From Deltaproteobacteria bacterium (lineage in GTDB: Bacteria; Myxococcota_A; Polyangia; JAAYKL01), in the NCBI GenBank assembly GCA_030595125.1, contig JAUVDV010000045.1, forward strand, positions 1-46,565: a stretch of DNA of 46,565 bases. The letters are read 5' to 3'. Position numbers and translations under genes: made by a program. Positions 14,265 through 30,622 of the stretch are shown here, in pieces; positions within the stretch are counted from its first letter, which is position 1, and every line of letters begins with the position of its first letter. A model generated the notes under the pieces. The model was not told the origin of the DNA, made no database searches, and worked only from the letters and a program-made list of their open reading frames with translations.

Positions 14265-15515
14265 TCATTCACTGACAAGGGCGTTGGCGAGTAGCTCCGA
14301 GAGGAACTCCACTTTCACTCCAACGTCGTAATGCTCGTTGAGATCCGACAGCTGGGTGTGGCAGTTCTCGCAGGCGGTGCAGAGCACCTTCGCCTCGGTG
14401 GCCTTCACCTGATCGATCTTCACGCGTGACGACTTCATCCTGAAGTCCTTCTCCCCCATGGCCACCAGGCCGCCGCCGCCGCCGCAGCACCAGTTCTCCT
14501 CCCGAGTTGGGGTCATCTCGACGAAATCGTCAGTCAGTTGCTCGAGCAGGTAGCGCGGCTCGTCGTAGATACCGCCGTTGCGAGCCATCTGGCACGGGTC
14601 GTGGTAGGTGACACGGCCCTCGATCTTCGACTTGTCCAGCTTTATGCGGCCCTCTTTTACATACCGTGCGAACAACTCCACGACGCTGACTACTTTGAAC
14701 GGATGTTCGCCGGTCATGTACTTCATCACGCGGTAGGCGGTGCCGCATTCGCAGATGGCAACCTCCTTGACGTTGAGCCGGGTGGCCTCGTCGATGATCC
14801 GGCGCGCGATGACCTTTGTCTTGGCAGGATCGCCGGCAAAGGCGCCGAAGTTGACCGCCTCGAAGTAGCTCAGGCTCCACTTTTCCTTCGCCGCGTTCAT
14901 TACGGCTGCCGCCGGGATGATGGAGTGCTTGCCCGCGAGAGCAACGTACAGCACGTTGGCGCCCTGGACACCGAGAGGGATTGCTTCTTCTCCCGCCTCG
15001 CTCTTCCACATCTCGATGACCTCCGCTTCCAGGTTCCTGACGCCCTGCGCGAAGTTTTCCTTTGTGTCCTCGATGGTCTCGGCCTTGGCGATGGACATGT
15101 CCGCAAGCATGTTGAGCACCACGGGTGTCATCTCTGCGGTGTTGGCCAGGTGCTTGGCAATTCCCTGGATCTGCTGGGTGTCGATGCCGAACGGACAGAC
15201 GGTCATACAGCGCCGGCAACCGGTGCACGAGTAGGCCGCGTCCAGGACCTGCTGCATCCACTCGTCGGTGAACTCAACCGCCTCGTTCATGCCCGGAGCG
15301 ATCTTGCCCGACAACCTGAAGTACTTGTCGAAAAGCCGCCGCACCACCTGGGCACGCCCCACCGGGGTGTACCTGGTCTCCGGCATGGACTGGTAGACGT
15401 GGCAAGAGTCGATGCACGTTCCGCAACGGGTACAGCCGTCCATATAGAGCCTTACGGCGTTGGTGAGTTTCTCCGAAAAGGCGTCCAGAAGTTCCTGTTT
15501 CTTCCTGTCGTCCAT
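14265..15515 (-). CDS. HdrD/TmcB/DsrK-like iron-sulfur electron-transfer protein
   Basis: A 416-residue soluble protein with two ferredoxin-type clusters: C28-C31-C34-C38 (CTRCGTCIDSC) and C97-C100-C103-C107 (CTGCRRCMTVCP). It then has two CCG-type domains. The second is complete (HDPC at 308, CC at 343-344, C382 and C385), as in subunits that bind the non-cubane cluster of heterodisulfide reductase. The first is degenerate (C255-x-C257). This arrangement is shared by HdrD, DsrK, HmcF and TmcB, which pass electrons between a membrane b-type cytochrome and thiol/disulfide chemistry. The start is supported by GGAGGGT 7 bases upstream. Only 2 bases separate it from the NarI-like gene, its predicted membrane partner. 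Confidence 0.92.
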   Translation of the reverse strand: MDDRKKQELLDAFSEKLTNAVRLYMDGCTRCGTCIDSCHVYQSMPETRYTPVGRAQVVRRLFDKYFRLSGKIAPGMNEAVEFTDEWMQQVLDAAYSCTGCRRCMTVCPFGIDTQQIQGIAKHLANTAEMTPVVLNMLADMSIAKAETIEDTKENFAQGVRNLEAEVIEMWKSEAGEEAIPLGVQGANVLYVALAGKHSIIPAAAVMNAAKEKWSLSYFEAVNFGAFAGDPAKTKVIARRIIDEATRLNVKEVAICECGTAYRVMKYMTGEHPFKVVSVVELFARYVKEGRIKLDKSKIEGRVTYHDPCQMARNGGIYDEPRYLLEQLTDDFVEMTPTREENWCCGGGGGLVAMGEKDFRMKSSRVKIDQVKATEAKVLCTACENCHTQLSDLNEHYDVGVKVEFLSELLANALVSE

Positions 15516-15517
15516 AT

Positions 15518-16231
15518 CTAGACCCTCCGAAACCGGTTGAGCGCCACTGTGAAGAAGGCGTGCATGATCTTGGAGAAGGGCAGCACCATCATGAACAGGT
15601 TGGCGAGGAAGATGTGGATGGCCACCACCACGTAATGGGAGCCGTAGAGAGTATCCGCCGGATCCTCGAAGGTGAAGTGCAGCAACCCGTCCAGGTAGGC
15701 TCCGAAGTCCTGCTTGGTGATAACGAACCCGTCCGCGCTCCAGGAGTTGCCCCAGCTGATGGTGTCACCGGTTATTACCGTGAGGAACAGCAGAAACAGC
15801 AGCAGGTAGTCCGCCGGCACGGAGACCTCGCGGACCGGACTGGCGAAACGACGCAACAGGAAATAGGTGACGGAGATGGTCACGGCCGCCCCCACCGCGC
15901 CCCAGCCGAGCATGTGCGGTGAGTCTTTCGGCATGAGCGATATCTGGGGCAGCAGATCCAGATGCGAGAGGATCAGGGCCCCGAAGCCTAAGTGAAAGAG
16001 CATCAGGAATACCCAGAACAGGGGCTTGTTCTTTCGCACGGTGGGCATGGTGAAGCTCTCCCAGAGGGCCACGAGAGGCGCGGCCTTGCGCTGCGGAAAG
16101 ATCTTGAGGGTGTGGGGATGAGCGGGCGCCCGCAGCACCATGACAATGCGCGCGATGACACCCAATACAAGCCACGCCACGGCCAGGTAAACCATCGGCA
16201 CCGTGATCACATAGAGAATCTTGTCCACCAT
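15518..16231 (-). CDS. NarI/DsrM/TmcC-like dihaem cytochrome b membrane subunit
   Basis: A 237-residue protein with about six hydrophobic segments. Four histidines reproduce the NarI haem b ligand spacing: H80 and H90 (10 apart), then H206 and H224 (18 apart), in contexts LFHLGFGALILSHLD and AIHIFLANLFMMVLPFSKIMH. Family members (NarI, DsrM, HdrE, TmcC) exchange electrons between menaquinone and a partner iron-sulfur subunit. The partner here is the next gene, 2 bases away. The pair could therefore reduce or oxidise quinone in exchange with a sulfur-based substrate. The gene follows tusA by 18 bases. Assignment to the nitrate reductase gamma fold is firm; the actual substrate is unknown and no nitrate reductase alpha/beta subunits are present. 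Confidence 0.93.
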   Translation of the reverse strand: MVDKILYVITVPMVYLAVAWLVLGVIARIVMVLRAPAHPHTLKIFPQRKAAPLVALWESFTMPTVRKNKPLFWVFLMLFHLGFGALILSHLDLLPQISLMPKDSPHMLGWGAVGAAVTISVTYFLLRRFASPVREVSVPADYLLLFLLFLTVITGDTISWGNSWSADGFVITKQDFGAYLDGLLHFTFEDPADTLYGSHYVVVAIHIFLANLFMMVLPFSKIMHAFFTVALNRFRRV

Positions 16232-16249
16232 GAAAGATTGTCTTTCGTT

Positions 16250-16486
16250 TTATTTGAGACGTTTTACATAGATCTTGATGGGTTCGCCCTGAACGGTCTC
16301 CAGAACTTCATTGCCGGTGGACTTGGCCCACGCCGGAAAGTCGGAAATGGAACCGGGATCGGTGGTCAGAACCTCGATGATCTGCCCCACTGTCACCGAG
16401 CCGATCTCCTGGCTAATCTTCACCACCGGCATCGGGCAAGGCAGCCCCTTCAGGTCCAGTACCTTCGCGACATCATGATTGCTCAT
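16250..16486 (-). CDS. tusA: TusA-family sulfur carrier
   Basis: A 78-residue protein with the TusA core DLKGLPCPMPVVK. Cys17 in the CPxP motif is the residue that carries persulfide sulfur. I chose the ATG at 16486, giving a normal TusA length, because GGAG lies 7 bases upstream; the longer open frame is spurious overlap with the preceding gene. In sulfur-oxidising and dissimilatory systems TusA exchanges sulfane sulfur with DsrE-type proteins and delivers it to Dsr or sHdr enzymes. The DsrE2-like gene 17 bases upstream and the Hdr-like genes downstream put it in that kind of pathway rather than in tRNA thiolation. Confidence 0.95.
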   Translation of the reverse strand: MSNHDVAKVLDLKGLPCPMPVVKISQEIGSVTVGQIIEVLTTDPGSISDFPAWAKSTGNEVLETVQGEPIKIYVKRLK

Positions 16487-16503
16487 CTCACTTCTCCTTC
16501 TTT

Positions 16504-17055
16504 TCAGGAAATTATCATCTGTATGCTGGACTCCTGAGCCTCGGCCAGGAAGGTGGCGACACCGCAGAAGTCCATGTTCGGGTAATCGATCAACTCCTCG
16601 CGCTTGAAGCCCATGAGGCCCATGGACATCTCGCACACCTTTATCTCAACGCCCGTCATCTGTGCGATCTCGAACAGCTGGTCCAGGCTGGGAGCGTTCT
16701 TTTTCTTCATCAGGCCCTTGAGCATGGAGGTGCCCATGCCCGCCATGTGCATCTGGGAGAGCTTGGTCTTGTTGCGGCCCTTGGGCAGCATCCAGCCAAA
16801 CATTTTAGACATGAAGTCCTTGCCTCCGACCTTCTTCTTGGGGTCGCGCAACGCTGCCGTGCCCCAGAAGGTAAAGAACTGAACTACTTTCATCCCCATG
16901 GCGGCGGCGCCTGTCGCGATAATCATTGCGGCCAGGAGCTTATCCAGATCGCCTGAGAGCACGATCATGGAAAGTTTGTTTTCCTTGCCCGCGGGCATGG
17001 CGTCCACCCTGGCCTTGAGTTCGGCCAGTTGGGTTTCGACATCAGCGCTCATCAT
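16504..17055 (-). CDS. DsrE2-like sulfurtransferase
   Basis: A 183-residue protein of the DsrE/DsrF/DrsH-like family, closest by pattern to DsrE2. Matching features are a hydrophobic ATGAAAMGMKVVQFFTF segment, a Met/Lys-rich middle (MHMAGMGTSMLKGLMKKK) and the reactive cysteine block VEIKVCEMSMGLMGF with Cys141, followed by FCGVATFLAEA with Cys164. DsrE-type cysteines hold persulfide and trade it with TusA, which is the next gene. Two adjacent ATGs (17055, 17052) both fit the AGGAGAA ribosome site. The gene lies 33 bases after the ArsR-type regulator. The pairing of regulator, DsrE2-like and TusA proteins mirrors the sulfane-sulfur branch of sHdr gene clusters. Confidence 0.9.
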   Translation of the reverse strand: MMSADVETQLAELKARVDAMPAGKENKLSMIVLSGDLDKLLAAMIIATGAAAMGMKVVQFFTFWGTAALRDPKKKVGGKDFMSKMFGWMLPKGRNKTKLSQMHMAGMGTSMLKGLMKKKNAPSLDQLFEIAQMTGVEIKVCEMSMGLMGFKREELIDYPNMDFCGVATFLAEAQESSIQMIIS

Positions 17056-17088
17056 TTTCTCCTCTTCAGTCCGCCCGGGGCGGTCTAT

Positions 17089-17409
17089 CTATTTTCTCTT
17101 ACAGCTCGACACACACTTGATGAGATCGTTCATCCTCGGCTCTGCCAGGGTGTAACGGGAGATCCCGTCCTCCCGATACGTCTCGACGAGACCGCTCATC
17201 CTCAGAATACGTAGTTGCTGGGATACCAGCGCCTGCTTGGTGTCCATCTTTCGCGCCATGTCGGAAACGCGCTCGTTCGACTGGCAAAGAAGATCGATGA
17301 TTCGCAACCTCAACGGATGCGCCACCGCCTTCAACACATCGGCAATCTGCTCGGCGTTTTCGCCGTTGACCCTGGTCTTGCCGCTTCCTTTTTTCTTCAT
17401 TCGTGACAT
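17089..17409 (-). CDS. ArsR-family repressor with SqrR/BigR/sHdrR-like cysteines
   Basis: A 106-residue winged-helix repressor: helix-turn-helix around residues 46-75 (VSDMARKMDTKQALVSQQLRILRMSGLV) and the wing TYREDGISRYTL. It lacks the ELCVCDL metal box of ArsR/SmtB. It has Cys42 in helix 2 (IDLLCQS) and Cys99/Cys103 at the C terminus (CVSSC). A helix-2 cysteine paired with a C-terminal one is the redox pair of persulfide sensors such as SqrR and BigR. I infer sulfane-sulfur sensing, supported by the DsrE2-like and TusA genes directly downstream. A regulatory inverted repeat lies 20 bases upstream of its ATG. The start is uncertain between 17409 and 17400; neither has a clear ribosome site. 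Confidence 0.88.
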   Translation of the reverse strand: MSRMKKKGSGKTRVNGENAEQIADVLKAVAHPLRLRIIDLLCQSNERVSDMARKMDTKQALVSQQLRILRMSGLVETYREDGISRYTLAEPRMNDLIKCVSSCKRK

Positions 17410-17421
17410 CTTGAGAATAGT

Positions 17422-17444
17422 ATTATCACTATATCGGGATATAG
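17422..17444 (-). promoter_or_regulatory. Probable promoter and ArsR operator
   Basis: A perfect inverted repeat CTATAT-CGGG-ATATAG (17429-17444) lies just upstream of a GATAAT -10-like hexamer (17422-17427, minus strand). The placement suits repression of the regulator operon by its own product. The same intergenic region serves the divergent multihaem cytochrome gene. Confidence 0.6.
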
Positions 17445-17551
17445 CAAGGTAAAATTAACATAAAGTTTATCGACTTTGGCTTTTTCTTCGTGCGAAAACG
17501 TCTAGAGCACGTCTTGACTAGACTTTCCTTATTACTTCGCAGATAAATAAA

Positions 17552-17610: not shown

Positions 17611-20325
17611 ATGGGTCGCTGCCCATTGGCAATAGCACTATCCGCAGGAATAGCTGGCTTGTTTCTCGGTTGCAACGAAGACCCCGGCGGGGGATCCGAC
17701 ACACCGGACGCGTCGACCAACGAAACACCGGACGCGGCACCCGATGATTGTGTTGCGGGCACTCTCCTCCCCTGTACTTGCCCCGACGGTGAAACGGGTT
17801 ATGCCGAATGCGTGGACGACAGCTGGGCCGAATGCGATTGCGAAGAGGGTGAGTTTCCAATGTTCTGCGGATTGTGCCACGGGGATTGGGACTATCCCGC
17901 TCCACCCAAAGATATCTCTGGAAATACGGAGACCAGCATTGTCACCGTGGGCGCCCACCGGGCCCACCTGATGGAGAGCGACTGGCACCGGCGGGTGGAG
18001 TGCGTGGACTGCCACGCGGTTCCCAAAAAAATGAATTCCCCGGGTCACATTGATCCTTCACCGGCGGAGCTCACCTTCGCAAAAGTCTCCATCGCTGACG
18101 GGGCGTCACCGCTATTCGATCGCACCATTGCCACCTGCGCTGGAACCTACTGTCACGGTTCTACGCTGACAGGGTTCGCCTCCGGGGATCCGGTATGGAC
18201 CGACGATGACGGATCCCCCGGAGAGTGCGGCTCTTGCCACAGCCTGCCACCGGGTGGAAGTCATCCCACAGACACAGAGTGTGAAAACTGCCACGGCAAC
18301 GTAGTCGCCGCTGGAAACGAGATCATCGCATCGAATCTTCATGTGGATGGGATCGTGCAGTTCTCCGGAGATGGGTTGAGCTGCAATACCTGCCATGGCG
18401 GCGCCCAAAACGCGGCGCCTCCGGTTGACACTTCCGGTAATACCGATCCCACGATTCCCACCGTGGGGGCTCATCAATCCCATCTGGGCACGAGCACCTG
18501 GCACCGGGAAGTGCAGTGCGATGACTGTCACGAAGTTCCCCAATCAATGGATGATTGTCACAACGACGGCCCACCCGCAGAGCACGTCTGGAGCGCGCTA
18601 TCGAGCGCCGACGGAGCCAACCCGTCATACGACTCGTCCACCACAACTTGCATCAACACCTATTGTCACGGCGCCACCCTGGCGGCCGGCGGAGAAAATC
18701 CGGATCCCCAGTGGAACGTGGTGGCGAGCGGGGAGGTTGTGTGCGGCGATTGCCACAGCATCCCACCCTGCACAGGTCACCCGGGATCGGGGCCGTGCGC
18801 CCCATGCCACGATCAGGTGTACGACGGCACCGACTGGGTTAACCCGCAGCTGCACATCGACGGCGTGATTCAAGTCATCGATGACCTGCCCTGCGGGGCC
18901 TGCCACGGGATGCCCCCGGCGGCGCCTCACAACGGATTCACCGACTGCGCACTGTGCCACGGCATGGTCTGGGACGGCACGGATTGGGTTGACGAATCCC
19001 TCCACGACAACGGCGTTGTGGATGTCTCGGGGTCATGCAATGTCTGTCACGGCAACCCCCCTACCCTCGCGAATCAGGATTTCCCGGGCGGCGGCGGAGC
19101 TCACGTGAAGCATGTGACCGACCTGGGCATGACGTGCAACATCTGCCACGGGCATAACGGCAGCGGCTCTACTCATGCACCCCTGGGTTCAGCCACCATT
19201 GATCAAGTCAACGTGGATATCGCATTTGATCTGAGCGTTTCATATCCCGGCGGCACAACCATGGACAACGGGCTGACCACGTCCTTCAGCCACAACGGAG
19301 GAAACCCCACTTGCAACGTGGGATGCCACAACCCGGTAGTGGGCGATGCGGCCTCTCTGGGGAATCAGGCCACATGGACCGATACAGAGATCACCTGCAT
19401 TGATTGCCACGACCAGACCGGCCTGAACCTGCCGATCAACCACCCGGTGAACGGCACCGACGCGCAGATCAGAGCCAATTGCTCCGAGTGTCATGATCAT
19501 TCCAACCACACGACAGGCACAATCGCATTCGCGGATCCGGACCCGAGCGACGGAATCGATCCCTCGACTACCTCGGTTGCAACCGACCTGTGCAAGACGT
19601 GTCACGATGGAGGATCTTCAACCTATTTCGGTGGCGCGACTGCGATTGATATGAGCGACTCGTGGATCGCTCCCCGTGCCCACGAAGATAACGCGGTGGG
19701 ATGCACAAGCTGTCACGGTCATCACGGGAACAGCTCGGGCGCCACCCTGACAGCAGACCCCGAGGAGAGCGGCTGCGCGAGTTGTCATCCAACTGTGGTG
19801 GCAGAGATGGCAGCGGGCGGATCCTTTACGCATCATCACGTGGACGATTCTGACCCACTGCATACTCCGGCAGAGCTGGAGTGCACAAGATGCCACAATC
19901 CTCATGTGGTCGACGATTCTCCCTGGCAACCGGTGATCAACCCGGACAACGGCAGCTTGATATCAGTAGCTGATGTTCCGAGCGATCATTTCTCCACCGC
20001 CGGAAGCGACACATCTGTTTTCTGCCTGACCTGTCACGACGGAACTCAGCCCGCCGCCGGAGACATCGCGGCAGAGCTGGCGAGCGCCTGGACCATCAAC
20101 TCCCAGTTCTTCAGAGGCGGCGCCTCCGACAGGAACATGCACATTTCCCACGTTTCAACCCAGGGATTCGCCTGTACGGAGTGTCACAACGCTCACAGCA
20201 ACACTGGCACATCGGGACTCAATCGCGGCCACCTGCTCTACAACTACATCACCGTCAACACCTTCCCGTATACAGGCAAGAACTCCTGCGGATTGTCAGG
20301 CGGCCCCACCGACTGTCATCATTAA
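17611..20325 (+). CDS. Large multihaem c-type cytochrome lipoprotein
   Basis: A 904-residue predicted lipoprotein with lipobox LFLGC (Cys21) and a near-perfect ribosome site GGAGGTGAT at 17600-17608. By direct count it has 20 CxxCH haem motifs, from CGLCH at residue 86 to CTECH near 855. It also has two CxxxxCH (CAGTYCH, CINTYCH), one CxxxCH (CNVGCH) and a terminal Cx8CH. The CxxxxCH...CxxCHSxPP blocks match the Geobacter-type repeated motif. Many extra histidines can serve as distal ligands. Such proteins sit on the outer membrane and conduct electrons to extracellular acceptors. It is divergent from the sulfur-handling operon and shares its control region; its stop overlaps that of the convergent glycosyltransferase gene by 4 bases. 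Haem number and location are inferred. Confidence 0.95.
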   Translation: MGRCPLAIALSAGIAGLFLGCNEDPGGGSDTPDASTNETPDAAPDDCVAGTLLPCTCPDGETGYAECVDDSWAECDCEEGEFPMFCGLCHGDWDYPAPPKDISGNTETSIVTVGAHRAHLMESDWHRRVECVDCHAVPKKMNSPGHIDPSPAELTFAKVSIADGASPLFDRTIATCAGTYCHGSTLTGFASGDPVWTDDDGSPGECGSCHSLPPGGSHPTDTECENCHGNVVAAGNEIIASNLHVDGIVQFSGDGLSCNTCHGGAQNAAPPVDTSGNTDPTIPTVGAHQSHLGTSTWHREVQCDDCHEVPQSMDDCHNDGPPAEHVWSALSSADGANPSYDSSTTTCINTYCHGATLAAGGENPDPQWNVVASGEVVCGDCHSIPPCTGHPGSGPCAPCHDQVYDGTDWVNPQLHIDGVIQVIDDLPCGACHGMPPAAPHNGFTDCALCHGMVWDGTDWVDESLHDNGVVDVSGSCNVCHGNPPTLANQDFPGGGGAHVKHVTDLGMTCNICHGHNGSGSTHAPLGSATIDQVNVDIAFDLSVSYPGGTTMDNGLTTSFSHNGGNPTCNVGCHNPVVGDAASLGNQATWTDTEITCIDCHDQTGLNLPINHPVNGTDAQIRANCSECHDHSNHTTGTIAFADPDPSDGIDPSTTSVATDLCKTCHDGGSSTYFGGATAIDMSDSWIAPRAHEDNAVGCTSCHGHHGNSSGATLTADPEESGCASCHPTVVAEMAAGGSFTHHHVDDSDPLHTPAELECTRCHNPHVVDDSPWQPVINPDNGSLISVADVPSDHFSTAGSDTSVFCLTCHDGTQPAAGDIAAELASAWTINSQFFRGGASDRNMHISHVSTQGFACTECHNAHSNTGTSGLNRGHLLYNYITVNTFPYTGKNSCGLSGGPTDCHH

Positions 20326-25531: not shown

Positions 25532-27976
25532 TCAAAAGGTGCGTTCGCAGGTGGAAACGGCGTCTGTGCCGTCAGACGTCCCTCCGAAGAAATAAATGAA
25601 GCCCGCGCCCTGGAGCCCGATTCCGAGCGCCCTGGGCTCGAGAAGGCTGCTGGCGGTTGAATTGATCGAGCCGGAGATGTCGCCCTGATCGTCGAATTCG
25701 GTGTCGCGGCCACTTGGGGTAATGTTGGAGAAGGTCGTATCATCGGCATCCGCCGCGCCGCCCAGGCAGAACAGCTTGTTGTTGGTGATCACCGGCATCA
25801 CGCCCGCTGCGCTCTGAACGGTCTTGCCGTTTGTGATCCAGGCATCGTTTTCGCCACCGACAGAGATGTCGGATTCCTCCAGGGTGCCTGTGGGCGAACC
25901 ATCGGTGCCGATGCCGCCCATTACCCAGAGGCGCGATCCCGTATCCGGGAAGGTCGACACGTTTTCGGTGCTCTCCATCAACGCGCCGAAAAACGCGCGC
26001 GCCTCATTCATGGACACCGTGGACGTGTCTTCAAATGCTCCAAGATCGCCGTCGCTATCGATCGCGGCTGCTTCAACTGTATCGAGGACCCCGTCGGCAA
26101 AGGAGCTCTTTCCGCCCATCGTATAGATATATTTATTGCCGGATGCGTCTCTTGCCAGAACCGAGCCGTGCCCCCACCTTCCGGTCACCAGGTTAGTATC
26201 ATCCAGAACCCAGGCCCCGGTCGCCCCGGCAAATAGCGGGGAAGCGGTTCCAGGAGCGTCGCCGCCGTCTTCATAACTCGTGCCGGTGGTCTCGGCGATC
26301 AGGTGTTCCTGTTGAGATGTGCCATCGGCCTCGTCTGTACGATAAATCCGGTAAGCTACCGCCGATTCGCCATCTACTGTGACGGGCTCCCAGGTGATAC
26401 TGACGCTTTCGGGGTTATCCAACGTTATTATTGCTTCTTCCGAAGCCAATGTCTCACCATCCGGGTTGTCCACGACACCGTCGGAGAGAACAGCTGATAC
26501 CTTGTAGTACCAGGTGCCTGCCGCCAGGCCGCTCGTGAGTGGCGCGGACGAGATGTTTGTAATGACGGGGGCGTTTTCGGGGGAAAGGACAACAGCTCGC
26601 TCAACTGAAGACAACACATCCTCCGTGTCTGAGAGGCCGCCGATCACGTAGATATAATTCTTTTGAGGGACGTATGGAGATATGGTGTCGTCAAATACCG
26701 GAACCGACACGACGAATGGGGCTCTCCTCGGAACGTTGAGGGAGTTGCCCTGCTCTCGCCAGGCGCCCAGAACGCCGAAGTTGGAGAGCTGACATAGCTC
26801 CACGGTATCCAGGGTGGTGCCGTCTTCGCCGGTATCACCACCGATGGCGTAGAGATACCGATTGCCGTTCACGTCGTTGGCGAACGTTCCTCCAGGCATT
26901 CTTCTGCCGGTACTCAGGGGTTCCGTTTCTTCGAATACGTTGAGATTTCCCGCAGGGTTCGTGACCAGGAACGACGAATAGGTGTAGTAGGTTTCCTCGT
27001 CCATGTTCCAGACCCTCACCAGGTACGGCCCCGCAGACAAGTCGCCGGATTGTGTGGCCGTCGGGAAGGTTGTGTCGATCTGGTTTTCTAAAACGGGTGT
27101 TACTCCGTCGATGGTCACTGCGGTTTCCATGTCGGAGTTGATCAATTCAATCCTCACGGGATCCCGGAAGTTCTGTCCGTAAATGGATACGTCGGTATCG
27201 TCCTGGCTCGTGCCACGGCCTGGAACGATGGCCACGACTATCGGCACGGGCTGCGAAACAACTTGAAACCCTTCTACCAGGAAGCCGGTCGCCTCACTCG
27301 AGGGAGGATTGACCACCGTGACGTCGTAGGTTCCGATGGGCGCTCCGCCGGGTACGATGGCAGTCAGCGTGTTCTCATCGATGAATGCGACGCTTTCGAA
27401 ATGGACCGGTTCCGCCTCCGGTTCGTCACTGAGACGCATGTATGCCGTTGGAGTCGAAATGAACCAGCCGTCTCCGAAGATCGTCACGTTGGTGCGCGCG
27501 CCGGTCCAGCCGAACGGGGGCTCGATTCCCAACAGGTCATGGTAAGTCGGCGGCACAACTGTCAGACAATCCTCCAGCGTTCCTGATTTCCCATTGGGGT
27601 TGTCTACTCTGATGTCGTAGACGATCTGGGGATCATCAGCTCCGATTGGCGGCACCAGGTTTTGTGGGATGACCGCGTGGAACGTGTCGGTTGCACCCTC
27701 TGAAGACAATGTTACCCCGGCGGGCGGTACCAGTGTGGCTTCGCCTTCTGGCGGCACGAGCCAGACCTCGGGCATCACAACCGAAGGCTGCTTTATGTTT
27801 CCACCCTCGACGATCGGTGAGAATCCAGAGCCGGAAATTTCGATTGTGTTCGGCCCCAGGGCCGTACATATGGTATCCGGCGTTACGGTCAGCACATCCG
27901 GAGTTGGCCCGCCATTGCCCGAACCACACGCTGTAAAAATGAACGTCAGTGTTACAAAGATTGCAATTCTATCCAT
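25532..27976 (-). CDS. IPT/TIG and Kelch-like repeat lipoprotein (paralogue 1)
   Basis: An 814-residue predicted lipoprotein with lipobox FTAC (Cys17); AAAGGAGC lies 8 bases before the chosen ATG. The first ~390 residues form several IPT/TIG-like immunoglobulin-type units (for example TICTALGPNTIEISGSGF and PPFGWTGARTNVTIFGDGWF). The second half has Kelch-like blades marked by YLYAIGGDTGEDGT, YIYVIGGLSDTED, YIYTMGGKSS, RLWVMGGIGTDG and FIYFFGGTSDGTD, interrupted by an FN3-like unit (GTWYYKVSAV). Such combinations form surface adhesion or scaffolding proteins. It is a tandem paralogue of the upstream gene. No catalytic residues are recognised and the binding target is unknown. Confidence 0.87.
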   Translation of the reverse strand: MDRIAIFVTLTFIFTACGSGNGGPTPDVLTVTPDTICTALGPNTIEISGSGFSPIVEGGNIKQPSVVMPEVWLVPPEGEATLVPPAGVTLSSEGATDTFHAVIPQNLVPPIGADDPQIVYDIRVDNPNGKSGTLEDCLTVVPPTYHDLLGIEPPFGWTGARTNVTIFGDGWFISTPTAYMRLSDEPEAEPVHFESVAFIDENTLTAIVPGGAPIGTYDVTVVNPPSSEATGFLVEGFQVVSQPVPIVVAIVPGRGTSQDDTDVSIYGQNFRDPVRIELINSDMETAVTIDGVTPVLENQIDTTFPTATQSGDLSAGPYLVRVWNMDEETYYTYSSFLVTNPAGNLNVFEETEPLSTGRRMPGGTFANDVNGNRYLYAIGGDTGEDGTTLDTVELCQLSNFGVLGAWREQGNSLNVPRRAPFVVSVPVFDDTISPYVPQKNYIYVIGGLSDTEDVLSSVERAVVLSPENAPVITNISSAPLTSGLAAGTWYYKVSAVLSDGVVDNPDGETLASEEAIITLDNPESVSITWEPVTVDGESAVAYRIYRTDEADGTSQQEHLIAETTGTSYEDGGDAPGTASPLFAGATGAWVLDDTNLVTGRWGHGSVLARDASGNKYIYTMGGKSSFADGVLDTVEAAAIDSDGDLGAFEDTSTVSMNEARAFFGALMESTENVSTFPDTGSRLWVMGGIGTDGSPTGTLEESDISVGGENDAWITNGKTVQSAAGVMPVITNNKLFCLGGAADADDTTFSNITPSGRDTEFDDQGDISGSINSTASSLLEPRALGIGLQGAGFIYFFGGTSDGTDAVSTCERTF

Positions 27977-28030
27977 CCTACTGCTCCTTTCGCAGGCCAA
28001 AACACTCATGCAATGTACGACTCAGAACTT

Positions 28031-30622
28031 CTATTGCAGCGTCCGCTCGACACTCGCGAGAGGCCCGGAACCGTCGTTACCGGCTATCGCCCACAGATAT
28101 CCGTTCACTCGGATGATTTCGTAATAGCCGCGGCTTATGGCAAACGACGAGGAGTTGCTCGTGCGCGAGTGGAAGATATCGGTCGGTGGAGGCGGTGTAG
28201 TGCCGGGTGAGTACAACAGGCGTGATGCGGCAGCGCTGCTGACGGTGGGATCGTCTCCGATGTCTTCCGTGGAAACGGCGCAGAAGGTGAACAGGACGTC
28301 AAAATGCAGGGAAGCGCCGTGAGCGTGGGTCGGATGACCGGGCTGGAGCGTGTCTCCCTGGACTGTCCACGCGCTGTTGTCACCGTCGGCGGATACGATC
28401 TCCGTCACTTCGAAATCAATAAGACCTGAGTTGGGGGCGCCCGCGTGGGCGTCATCGCCGAGGATTGCCATCAGGTAAAGTGGGCCGGTCGGGACCGTTT
28501 TTTCAAGGGGGATTTCGGGGTCCGGGATGAAGTTTGAGCCGTCTTGCCCCTGATTTGTCAACAGAACGTAGAACGCCCTCGCAGTGTTCAGGTCATGGGA
28601 GAGGGTGCTGAACGCGGCGAGCGTTCCATCGGCCAGGACCTCCGCCCGCTCCCCGCTGACGTGATAGCCCGTGCCGCTGGCGTCCGGTCGGCCGCCGACC
28701 GCGTAGAGATACGTGGCATCGTCAGTTATTGTATCGCCACTTGGAACCGTCACGACCAGCGCCTCGAGGCCTTCCCTCGGAACGGTGAGGGTCGTCGACA
28801 ATGTCTCCCAGTTGCTGATGGAGCCGAATGGCAGCGGGGTGATGCCTGCTGCATCCGGTGTGACGGATCCGTCGTCGTCATAGGTGGTGGCAGTTACACC
28901 ATGCGCCAGAAGACGCGTATCTCCCGAGTTTCCGGACTCGTCGACATTGCGGAAGATATTGTACGAAGTCGCACCCGATATTGGTGTCCATTGAATGGTA
29001 ACAGTGCCTGAACCACCCGAGATCATCTCTCGCGAGGACGCCAGTGTTTCACCTCTCGGGGTCACCGCAGACACCTGGTAGTACCATGTTCCGGCCGCCA
29101 GTGTTCCGGCAGAGGCGTTGAAGGAGGCGGCGTCAATTACCGGCCGCGTATCAAGACCAAGTATCTGCGCTCTCTCGATAGTGTCCAGGGCGGAGGTCGT
29201 CAGCGAGGGCAAGTTGGTGTTGGTGTCTGCGCCGCCCACCGCGTAGATCCATTTGTCGGCGCGCACCAGAGAATGTCCCTGGCGCCCCACAGGTGATGAG
29301 GTGGTGCCCAGAAGGTTGTCCTCTCGAGATGACGTGGTCTCGTTCCACTGTTGCGCGACCCACGGCACACCGGGTTCGCCTGTCAAGCTGATCGATATGA
29401 CCTCCACGTCGCGCAGCACGACGTCTCCGTCGTCGAGGCCACCCGTCGTGTAGATGTAGGTTCCTCCGAAGGCGTCAAAACCTGCAACGGAGCTCTGTCT
29501 CCACCTGGCAGTGACCAGGGCGTCGGGAATCTCGACATAATTGCCCACGTGGCCGATCGCCGACTCGGTCGCTTCGTAGCTGTAGAAAACGTCATACTGG
29601 GTGTCCGGATTGACGACTCGCACGGGGTAAATACCCTGGCTCACGTCTGCTTTGTCGATGGCTGCGGTCAGCTCGTCGGCTGTCACAAAGGTCGTGACCA
29701 TGTCGATCGGGGTGCCGTCGGACTCAAGGAACTGGACTACCGCTCCAGACTGAAAGTATTCGCCAGTGACGGTCATGTTGAAACTTTCGGCCGAGGGGTT
29801 TCGGAAGGGATCGATATCGATAATGTTCGGCGGTGGGACGGTGTTGATTTCGAACTCGTCTTTCACCGTGCCGTCCATCCAGAATGCGCCGATGCCGGAC
29901 GGGTTTGTAACTTCTACCCAGTACATTCCAGCCGGTATCGAGTCGCTCTCGGAAGGGCAGACCCCCTCGAGTTCTGTCACCGAGGCGAAGACCACAATAC
30001 TGGCGGGGTACCGCGCGCTCGGATCGGAGACACTCACCCAGGTCACCATCGGAACTTCCTCGAAACCGGTGCCTTCAATGGCGACCTGCTTGTCCGATAT
30101 GGCCGTATCCGTAGAGATGCCGGTCCAGGCCGAGTCGGGCGTAACCAACGTCACGGTCAGCGGCGCCAGATCCAGGGCGTCGAAAGTGGTTGGGCATTCA
30201 ACGGTTTCGTCGTCGGGGTTGGTCAGACTCACCTCGTAGGTACCGACGGCCACTTCGCCCACCGCAACTTCCACGAACGCGCCGGTCGAGGCAACAACTG
30301 TGGCAGCGCCGAGGTCTACGGCTGTCGTGGTCGTAGTTTCGACAACAGAGACCGTCATCCCGTCCAGAAAACCGCTGCCGGTTACTGTGAACTCCGTTGC
30401 AGCCTGCGTTGTGATGGCCGCCGGATTCACCGCGTGGCACTCGAAGGGATCCGGACCGCCGTCTGCGTCGGTATCCGTATCGGTATCGGTGTCCGTGTCC
30501 GTGTCGGTATCCGTATCTGTGTCTGTGTCCGTAGAGCCGTCCACGCCCGCATCGCCCTTGGGGCTGCCGCTCGAGCACGCCAGCATGGTAAGGGCAAAAA
30601 GTACACAAATCAGTTTTTTCAT
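28031..30622 (-). CDS. IPT/TIG and Kelch-like repeat lipoprotein (paralogue 2, with D/T linker)
   Basis: An 863-residue predicted lipoprotein with lipobox TMLAC (Cys16) and GGGAGGA 8 bases upstream. Unlike its paralogue it carries a 25-residue Asp-Thr linker (residues 30-54) before the repeat region. IPT-like units follow (ITTQAATEFTVTGSGFLDG, NPSAESFNMTVTGEYFQSG), then Kelch-like units (YIYTTGGLDDGD, WIYAVGGADTNT, YLYAVGGRPDASG) and an FN3-like unit. Several blocks align with the neighbour (GTWYYQVSAV against GTWYYKVSAV), so the two arose by duplication. The gain or loss of the linker is the main N-terminal difference. Predicted outer-membrane surface protein. Confidence 0.87.
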   Translation of the reverse strand: MKKLICVLFALTMLACSSGSPKGDAGVDGSTDTDTDTDTDTDTDTDTDTDTDADGGPDPFECHAVNPAAITTQAATEFTVTGSGFLDGMTVSVVETTTTTAVDLGAATVVASTGAFVEVAVGEVAVGTYEVSLTNPDDETVECPTTFDALDLAPLTVTLVTPDSAWTGISTDTAISDKQVAIEGTGFEEVPMVTWVSVSDPSARYPASIVVFASVTELEGVCPSESDSIPAGMYWVEVTNPSGIGAFWMDGTVKDEFEINTVPPPNIIDIDPFRNPSAESFNMTVTGEYFQSGAVVQFLESDGTPIDMVTTFVTADELTAAIDKADVSQGIYPVRVVNPDTQYDVFYSYEATESAIGHVGNYVEIPDALVTARWRQSSVAGFDAFGGTYIYTTGGLDDGDVVLRDVEVISISLTGEPGVPWVAQQWNETTSSREDNLLGTTSSPVGRQGHSLVRADKWIYAVGGADTNTNLPSLTTSALDTIERAQILGLDTRPVIDAASFNASAGTLAAGTWYYQVSAVTPRGETLASSREMISGGSGTVTIQWTPISGATSYNIFRNVDESGNSGDTRLLAHGVTATTYDDDGSVTPDAAGITPLPFGSISNWETLSTTLTVPREGLEALVVTVPSGDTITDDATYLYAVGGRPDASGTGYHVSGERAEVLADGTLAAFSTLSHDLNTARAFYVLLTNQGQDGSNFIPDPEIPLEKTVPTGPLYLMAILGDDAHAGAPNSGLIDFEVTEIVSADGDNSAWTVQGDTLQPGHPTHAHGASLHFDVLFTFCAVSTEDIGDDPTVSSAAASRLLYSPGTTPPPPTDIFHSRTSNSSSFAISRGYYEIIRVNGYLWAIAGNDGSGPLASVERTLQ

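Follow-up and report, generated by a model that had tools for sequence, protein, structure and literature searches.

To our knowledge, the routes by which protein-bound sulfane sulfur reaches energy metabolism run via DsrC and DsrAB or via the soluble sHdr system. This study deals with an operon that joins two sulfur carriers to a predicted membrane-bound redox pair. It lies at positions 14265-17409, minus strand, of contig JAUVDV010000045.1 (46,565 nucleotides, assembly GCA_030595125.1) from a Deltaproteobacteria bacterium of the Myxococcota_A; this whole stretch of DNA is called the window. From 5' to 3' the operon encodes an ArsR/SmtB-family regulator, a DsrE2-like protein, TusA, a NarI-like membrane subunit and an HdrD/DsrK-like iron-sulfur protein, and the last four genes are referred to as the module. 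With a probability of roughly 0.55, the module is a self-contained redox unit for protein-bound sulfane sulfur, which most likely exchanges two electrons between persulfide bound to TusA/DsrE2 and a membrane carrier.

Several described systems share parts with the module. DsrMK(JOP) also has a NarI-type dihaem b subunit, a DsrK-type protein with two [4Fe-4S] sites and one CCG site, and sulfur-linked electron transfer on the cytoplasmic side. On the other hand, the module has TusA and DsrE2 in its operon, its HdrD-like protein falls below the DsrK cut-off and in a separate clade, and DsrC was not found in the window genome. TmcBC and HmcEF likewise pair a NarI-type membrane subunit with a CCG iron-sulfur protein, but the module stays far below the TmcB, HmcF and TmcC cut-offs, in clades apart from theirs, and includes TusA and DsrE2. 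In sHdr clusters, carriers of the TusA and DsrE2 families are also tied to Hdr-type chemistry, whereas the redox part of the module would be membrane-bound and the window genome has no HdrB-type subunit. The mycobacterial electron-transfer flavoprotein (ETF):menaquinone oxidoreductase EtfD (9OJN), which serves ETF, combines a NarI-like part and a CCG iron-sulfur part; unlike the two proteins of the module, it is one fused chain without sulfur carriers. Finally, the YTD cluster (YedE, TusA and a DsrE-like protein) and the type II DsrEFH of Desulfobacterota bring TusA together with a partner of the DsrE superfamily (PMC12998232, PMC13293266), from which the window operon differs by the lack of a YedE gene, a DsrE2 of the PF13686 type and the presence of the redox pair.

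Gene order and inheritance of the module

The five genes are separated by 33, 17, 18 and 2 bp. Open reading frames and domain matches confirm the operon, its order and its gaps of 2-33 bases as described in a previous sequence-only reading, in which the stretch ended at 17444 and also took in almost the whole of a palindrome at 17430-17445. All five genes occur together in the window genome (G000) and in both of its congeners (G001 and G002), and each of them is under purifying selection (dN/dS, the ratio of nonsynonymous to synonymous changes, is 0.03-0.13 against the two congeners). The whole operon is also present in G229, a genome from another family of the same phylum, whose HdrD-like and DsrE2 proteins are 69% and 77% identical to those of the window.

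Two peptide patterns from the HdrD alignment, run against 84,980 species genomes, gave at least 70 loci. In 58 of these the four genes are all present on the same strand (three of them having been fetched twice), and 55 of the 58 keep the order DsrE2-TusA-NarI-HdrD; among the exceptions, L088 and L112 have one frame that runs past the contig end. A neighbourhood search of the kind proposed in the sequence-only reading found the carriers beside NarI-like/CCG pairs well beyond the window, in some hosts without detected dsrA. The distance matrices of the four proteins agree with one another, at correlations of r 0.80-0.94 that none of 500 permutations reached, and the four proteins are co-inherited. 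Since order, dN/dS and matrix correlation coincide, the operon is not a chance arrangement.

The module spans Thermodesulfobacteriota, the window lineage, Eisenbacteria, spirochaetes and one Clostridiales metagenome-assembled genome (MAG). Among the hosts are Desulfacinum infernum DSM 9756, Solidesulfovibrio, Humidesulfovibrio, Desulfosarcina and Desulfobacterales MAGs, as well as two Eisenbacteria, the Clostridiales MAG and spirochaetes, of which Rectinema subterraneum is one; a partial set at a contig end was seen in Desulfomicrobium (L137) and in two further spirochaete MAGs. The assembly of R. subterraneum was described as contaminated (PMC12236494); its module copy groups with two other spirochaete MAGs in the HdrD-like tree. 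Most of the window's own family is without the module, the best match in the family beyond the genus being 36% identical (268 bits). This near-absence, together with the HdrD-like tree, suggests horizontal acquisition. A plasmid collection gave no tblastn match to the module at E 1e-40.

The redox pair

The NarI-like subunit (15518-16231, minus strand; 237 aa; PF02665, E 8e-11) has five predicted transmembrane helices, and its structure model, with five long helices (mean pLDDT 79.9), matches E. coli NarI in a fold search (Z 15.2 over 198 residues), EtfD being the second family among its matches. His80/His90, at a spacing of 10, are present in 64 of 65 sequences, and His206/His224, at a spacing of 18, in 63 and 64 of 65, respectively; the haem-ligating histidines of E. 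coli NarI are spaced in the same way. Five helices and two such histidine pairs are the anatomy of a NarI-type dihaem cytochrome b.

The HdrD/DsrK-like protein (14265-15515, minus strand; 416 aa; CCG PF02754, E 1e-15; Fer4_8) carries two [4Fe-4S] ferredoxin sites and one CCG site (C308, C343, C344, C382, C385), whose CX(n)CCX(n)CXXC motif is present in 65 of 65 sequences; all the cluster cysteines are kept in 64-65 of them. Its model (mean pLDDT 85.6) best matches EtfD (Z 21.6, 378 residues) and also HdrB of the methanogen Hdr complex (Z 16-17, 225 residues). No DsrK or HdrE structure was among the best matches of the fold searches, an absence that is uninformative on kinship. It is from this cofactor anatomy that we infer electron transfer through the pair.

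In a tree of 96 sequences, the bootstrap of which is not fully settled, the 65 module proteins fall on one side of a branch (99/96), and DsrK, TmcB and HmcF each form a separate clade (100/100). Module proteins score 237-280 bits against the DsrK model NF045796 (254 bits, E 7.5e-75, in the window genome), below its cut-off of 400, whereas the true DsrK that sulfate-reducing hosts also carry scores 716-765 bits. The Tmc cut-offs are likewise far off (TmcB 232 vs 735 bits; TmcC 36 vs 240 bits). Judged by the tree and the curated cut-offs, the module HdrD-like proteins are a subfamily of their own, and the label of an HdrDE/TmcBC-type pair, used in the sequence-only reading, finds no support in that form; its broader point, that sulfane-sulfur carriers are joined to a membrane pair of the DsrMK/TmcBC type instead of sHdr subunits, stands. 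One further protein, L208 (G314:C1:6462667-6463929), is a long-branched sister to the module clade, and its genome also has the module.

Sulfur carriers

TusA (16250-16486, minus strand; 78 aa; PF01206, E 1e-21) shows the conserved CPMP motif. The DsrE2-like protein (16504-17055, minus strand; 183 aa) belongs to PF13686 DrsE_2 (E 6.5e-48; 163 bits, cut-off 25), its closest solved structure being 3PNX (E 6e-43), but it falls short of the curated NCBIfam DsrE2 family NF047629 (64.6 bits vs 210). Cys141 is its sole invariant cysteine among 14 aligned sequences, whereas two strictly conserved cysteines have been described for the DsrE2A subgroup (PMC4175335). Across 60-65 sequences Cys141, the TusA CPMP motif, the two ferredoxin sites and the CCG site are near-invariant. 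A role of both carriers in sulfur transfer is proposed because their relatives transfer sulfur: persulfide is exchanged in vitro between TusA and DsrE-type proteins (PMC13293266), and in M. cuprina thiosulfonate is carried by TusA and DsrE3A (PMC4175335).

The same carriers were found in another setting. In L072:1314-8472 (G118:C16) DsrE2 and TusA adjoin MvhD (FlpD), two HdrA-like flavoproteins and a QmoC-like protein, the DsrE2 being 69% identical to that of the window. As in the module, the carriers stand beside a complex of the Hdr type, part of which is predicted to lie in the membrane; the partner in G118 is Qmo-like instead of NarI/HdrD. The DsrE2-TusA carriers appear to pair here with at least two different Hdr-type partners, besides the known sHdr.

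Sulfur and quinone context of the hosts

A dsrA gene above the cut-off is present in 31 of 51 module genomes; it was not detected in the window genome, its two congeners, G229, both Eisenbacteria, three spirochaetes or the Clostridiales genome. Genes of the dsr set are not among the conserved neighbours of the module, which in sulfate reducers lies apart from dsrAB; these neighbours and the hosts without detected dsrA rule out that the module is part of a Dsr locus. In agreement with the sequence-only reading, the cluster is not always found inside a complete Dsr, Tmc or sHdr locus, since it occurs in hosts without dsrA or sHdr-type HdrB. No DsrC could be detected in the window genome, in G001, among the spirochaetes or in the Clostridiales genome; G002 and G229 have one copy each. 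The model of the sHdr-type HdrB (TIGR03288) gave only stray CCG hits below 30 bits in the window genome and its congeners. As the window genome shows no dsrA, DsrC or HdrB beyond these stray hits, the carriers of the operon are the likeliest partners of the pair. Within the operon, to which this search was confined, there is no sHdr-type lipoate-binding protein nor genes for its assembly. Transporters of the YeeE/YedE type are patchy among module genomes, with one in the window genome.

Regarding quinones, 12 genomes were tested. MqnA/MqnD were clear only in the two sulfate reducers tested, with one weak match in a spirochaete, and MenD was above the cut-off in none; in G229, MqnA/MqnD and a MenD above the cut-off were likewise not found. 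Prenyltransferases of the UbiA superfamily are present in the window genome (MenA-like, 89.5 bits, cut-off 102), both congeners and G229, and R. subterraneum has MqnP-like and MenA-like ones. Either the hosts with the ArsR version use a quinone made or scavenged otherwise, or the dihaem subunit serves another carrier.

Regulators and conserved neighbours

The ArsR version of the module occurs in the window genus and in G229, as well as in Desulfarculaceae and Rectinema; in the two Eisenbacteria the ArsR is of another type. In the version of the sulfate reducers, a MarR-family gene stands 5' of the module in 39 of the 46 loci with visible upstream DNA, and a gene for an OmpP1/FadL/TodX-type outer-membrane protein follows directly downstream in 27 of the 64 with visible downstream DNA, often beginning 22-175 bp past the HdrD stop (for example L111:9704-10969). 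It is possible that this protein imports hydrophobic sulfur or organic compounds. At the ArsR-type loci, that of the window among them, no neighbouring gene of the FadL type was seen. The sequence-only reading, supported in part, had overlooked this widespread version. Upstream of DsrE2, the conserved MarR gene was noted at 41 loci between L091 and L150 (e.g. L111:5603-6079); an N-terminal FQCCQERMQYQ motif, which contains a Cys-Cys pair, is common to three of the MarR sequences. TsoR (NF045707) was ruled out as the regulator of the module, because the Desulfomicrobium genomes G356, G366 and G368, with TsoR above the cut-off, have no module, and the module-bearing G348 and G360 have no TsoR above it.

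The ArsR of the window (17089-17409, minus strand; 106 aa; HTH_5, E 5e-11) is nearest by sequence, among solved structures, to 6O8L and 3PQJ, the structures of SqrR and BigR. It reaches 55 bits against the BigR equivalog, below the cut-off of 155. Its own cysteines, C42, C99 and C103, are partly common to its relatives, and it may sense persulfide. The palindrome (17430-17445, without strand; 16 bp, CTATATC-2bp-GATATAG), a candidate operator, lies 20 bp 5' of the ArsR start; the 6-bp arms (CTATATCCCAATATAG) are conserved in the two congeners, L061 and L062, and were not seen in L071. Promoter and terminator scans gave no clear excess above shuffles.

Proposed mechanism and alternatives

In the proposed mechanism, TusA and the DsrE2-like protein would take up sulfane sulfur as cysteine persulfides and hand it over between their single conserved cysteines. 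The HdrD/DsrK-like protein would then dock the carrier, make or break a sulfur-sulfur bond at the CCG-type cluster in a two-electron step, and relay the electrons via its two ferredoxin-type [4Fe-4S] clusters to the NarI-like subunit, whose two b haems would connect them to a lipid-soluble membrane carrier in either direction. In the window lineage, ArsR would repress the operon, probably at the palindrome, until released by a thiol-reactive signal. Electron flow from a sulfide-level donor to quinone is downhill, and the reduction of persulfide by quinol is uphill; we therefore lean slightly towards oxidation of thiol plus sulfide or persulfide, with electrons entering the membrane, although no sequence evidence found here settles between oxidation and reduction.

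Two points of the sequence-only reading are weakened. The regulator is nearest to SqrR and BigR, in line with the persulfide-type sensor of the sequence-only reading, but SqrR C41/C107 align with D39/K104 of the window ArsR, so that the cysteine pair of SqrR/BigR is absent. The proposed link to the menaquinone pool is uncertain: neither MqnA/MqnD nor MenD turned up in the window genome, in its congeners or in most of the ArsR-clade genomes tested, although the window genome has the MenA-like prenyltransferase. The missing synthesis genes also weigh against the mechanism proposed here; it should be noted that the window genome is a draft and its absences are not final. Besides, DsrE2B of M. cuprina was inert toward every sulfur compound tried (PMC4175335), and Rectinema cohabitans, congeneric with one of the module hosts, has been reported from pure culture as unable to reduce sulfur compounds (PMC6052044).

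It is possible, though rather unlikely, that the module is a respiratory reductase that forms sulfide from carrier-bound persulfide or polysulfide, independently of DsrAB and with electrons drawn from the membrane carrier, the FadL-type protein of sulfate reducers admitting hydrophobic sulfur such as S8. The frequent FadL/OmpP1-like gene 3' of the module speaks for this, as does DsrMK, the closest functional analogue, which is thought to be reductive in sulfate reducers; against it stand the ArsR-type loci without such a gene, the uphill step from quinol to persulfide and the missing markers of naphthoquinone synthesis in most ArsR-clade genomes. Relief of sulfide or persulfide stress and sulfane-sulfur homeostasis, with ArsR sensing thiol stress and the module clearing the excess without any growth role, seems improbable: most homologous loci have MarR and not ArsR, the sensing cysteines of SqrR are not at the aligned positions, and a membrane dihaem complex would be expensive for detoxification alone, even if the regulator is nearest to sulfide-responsive proteins, the palindrome 5' of it is conserved and the module occurs in genomes of spirochaetes and Eisenbacteria in which dsrA was not detected. 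Both subunits match EtfD, where the NarI and CCG parts form one chain, and the FadL-type neighbours could import hydrophobic organic compounds; the pair might then serve another soluble donor (e.g. ETF) or an organic disulfide, the carriers being co-regulated passengers that provide, for instance, sulfur for cofactor synthesis. This is very doubtful, given the fixed order and co-inheritance of the four genes, the strong constraint on the cysteines of DsrE2 and TusA and the absence of any further enzyme family among the conserved neighbours.

Returning to the self-contained redox unit, a wider proposal can be advanced tentatively, at less than even odds: a horizontally spread energy module in which a DsrMK-like complex of the membrane would act directly on persulfide bound to TusA/DsrE2, without DsrC, DsrAB or sHdr, and which in some hosts is perhaps coupled to a membrane electron carrier different from menaquinone of their own making. 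Taken singly, the parts are of known kinds; what appears to be new is their fixed combination and the separate HdrD subfamily. No description of the gene set was found in the open literature, a search that left out subscription journals and many genome papers on sulfate-reducing bacteria, so that a prior description is possible. The distribution suggests that, in several phyla, bacteria do without the known sulfite-reductase machinery when they exchange electrons with protein-bound sulfur. If this is true, there is a route of the sulfur cycle invisible to marker-gene surveys based on dsrAB or shdr, for which the HdrD-like subfamily would be a specific marker.

Other genes of the window

The other scanned genes of the 46.6-kb window (kelch/TIG, VWA, glycoside-phosphorylase-like, lactate permease and BipA) have no evident link with sulfur. 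Divergent from the operon, at 17611-20325, lies a gene for a 904-aa multihaem c-type cytochrome (GSu_C4xC__C2xCH, cytochrome c7/c3 domains). It was ruled out as an obligate partner of the module, as it stands beside the operon in congener G002 and not in G001. Two large adjoining proteins with TIG/kelch domains (25532-30622, minus strand) and the nearby VWA proteins resemble surface proteins.

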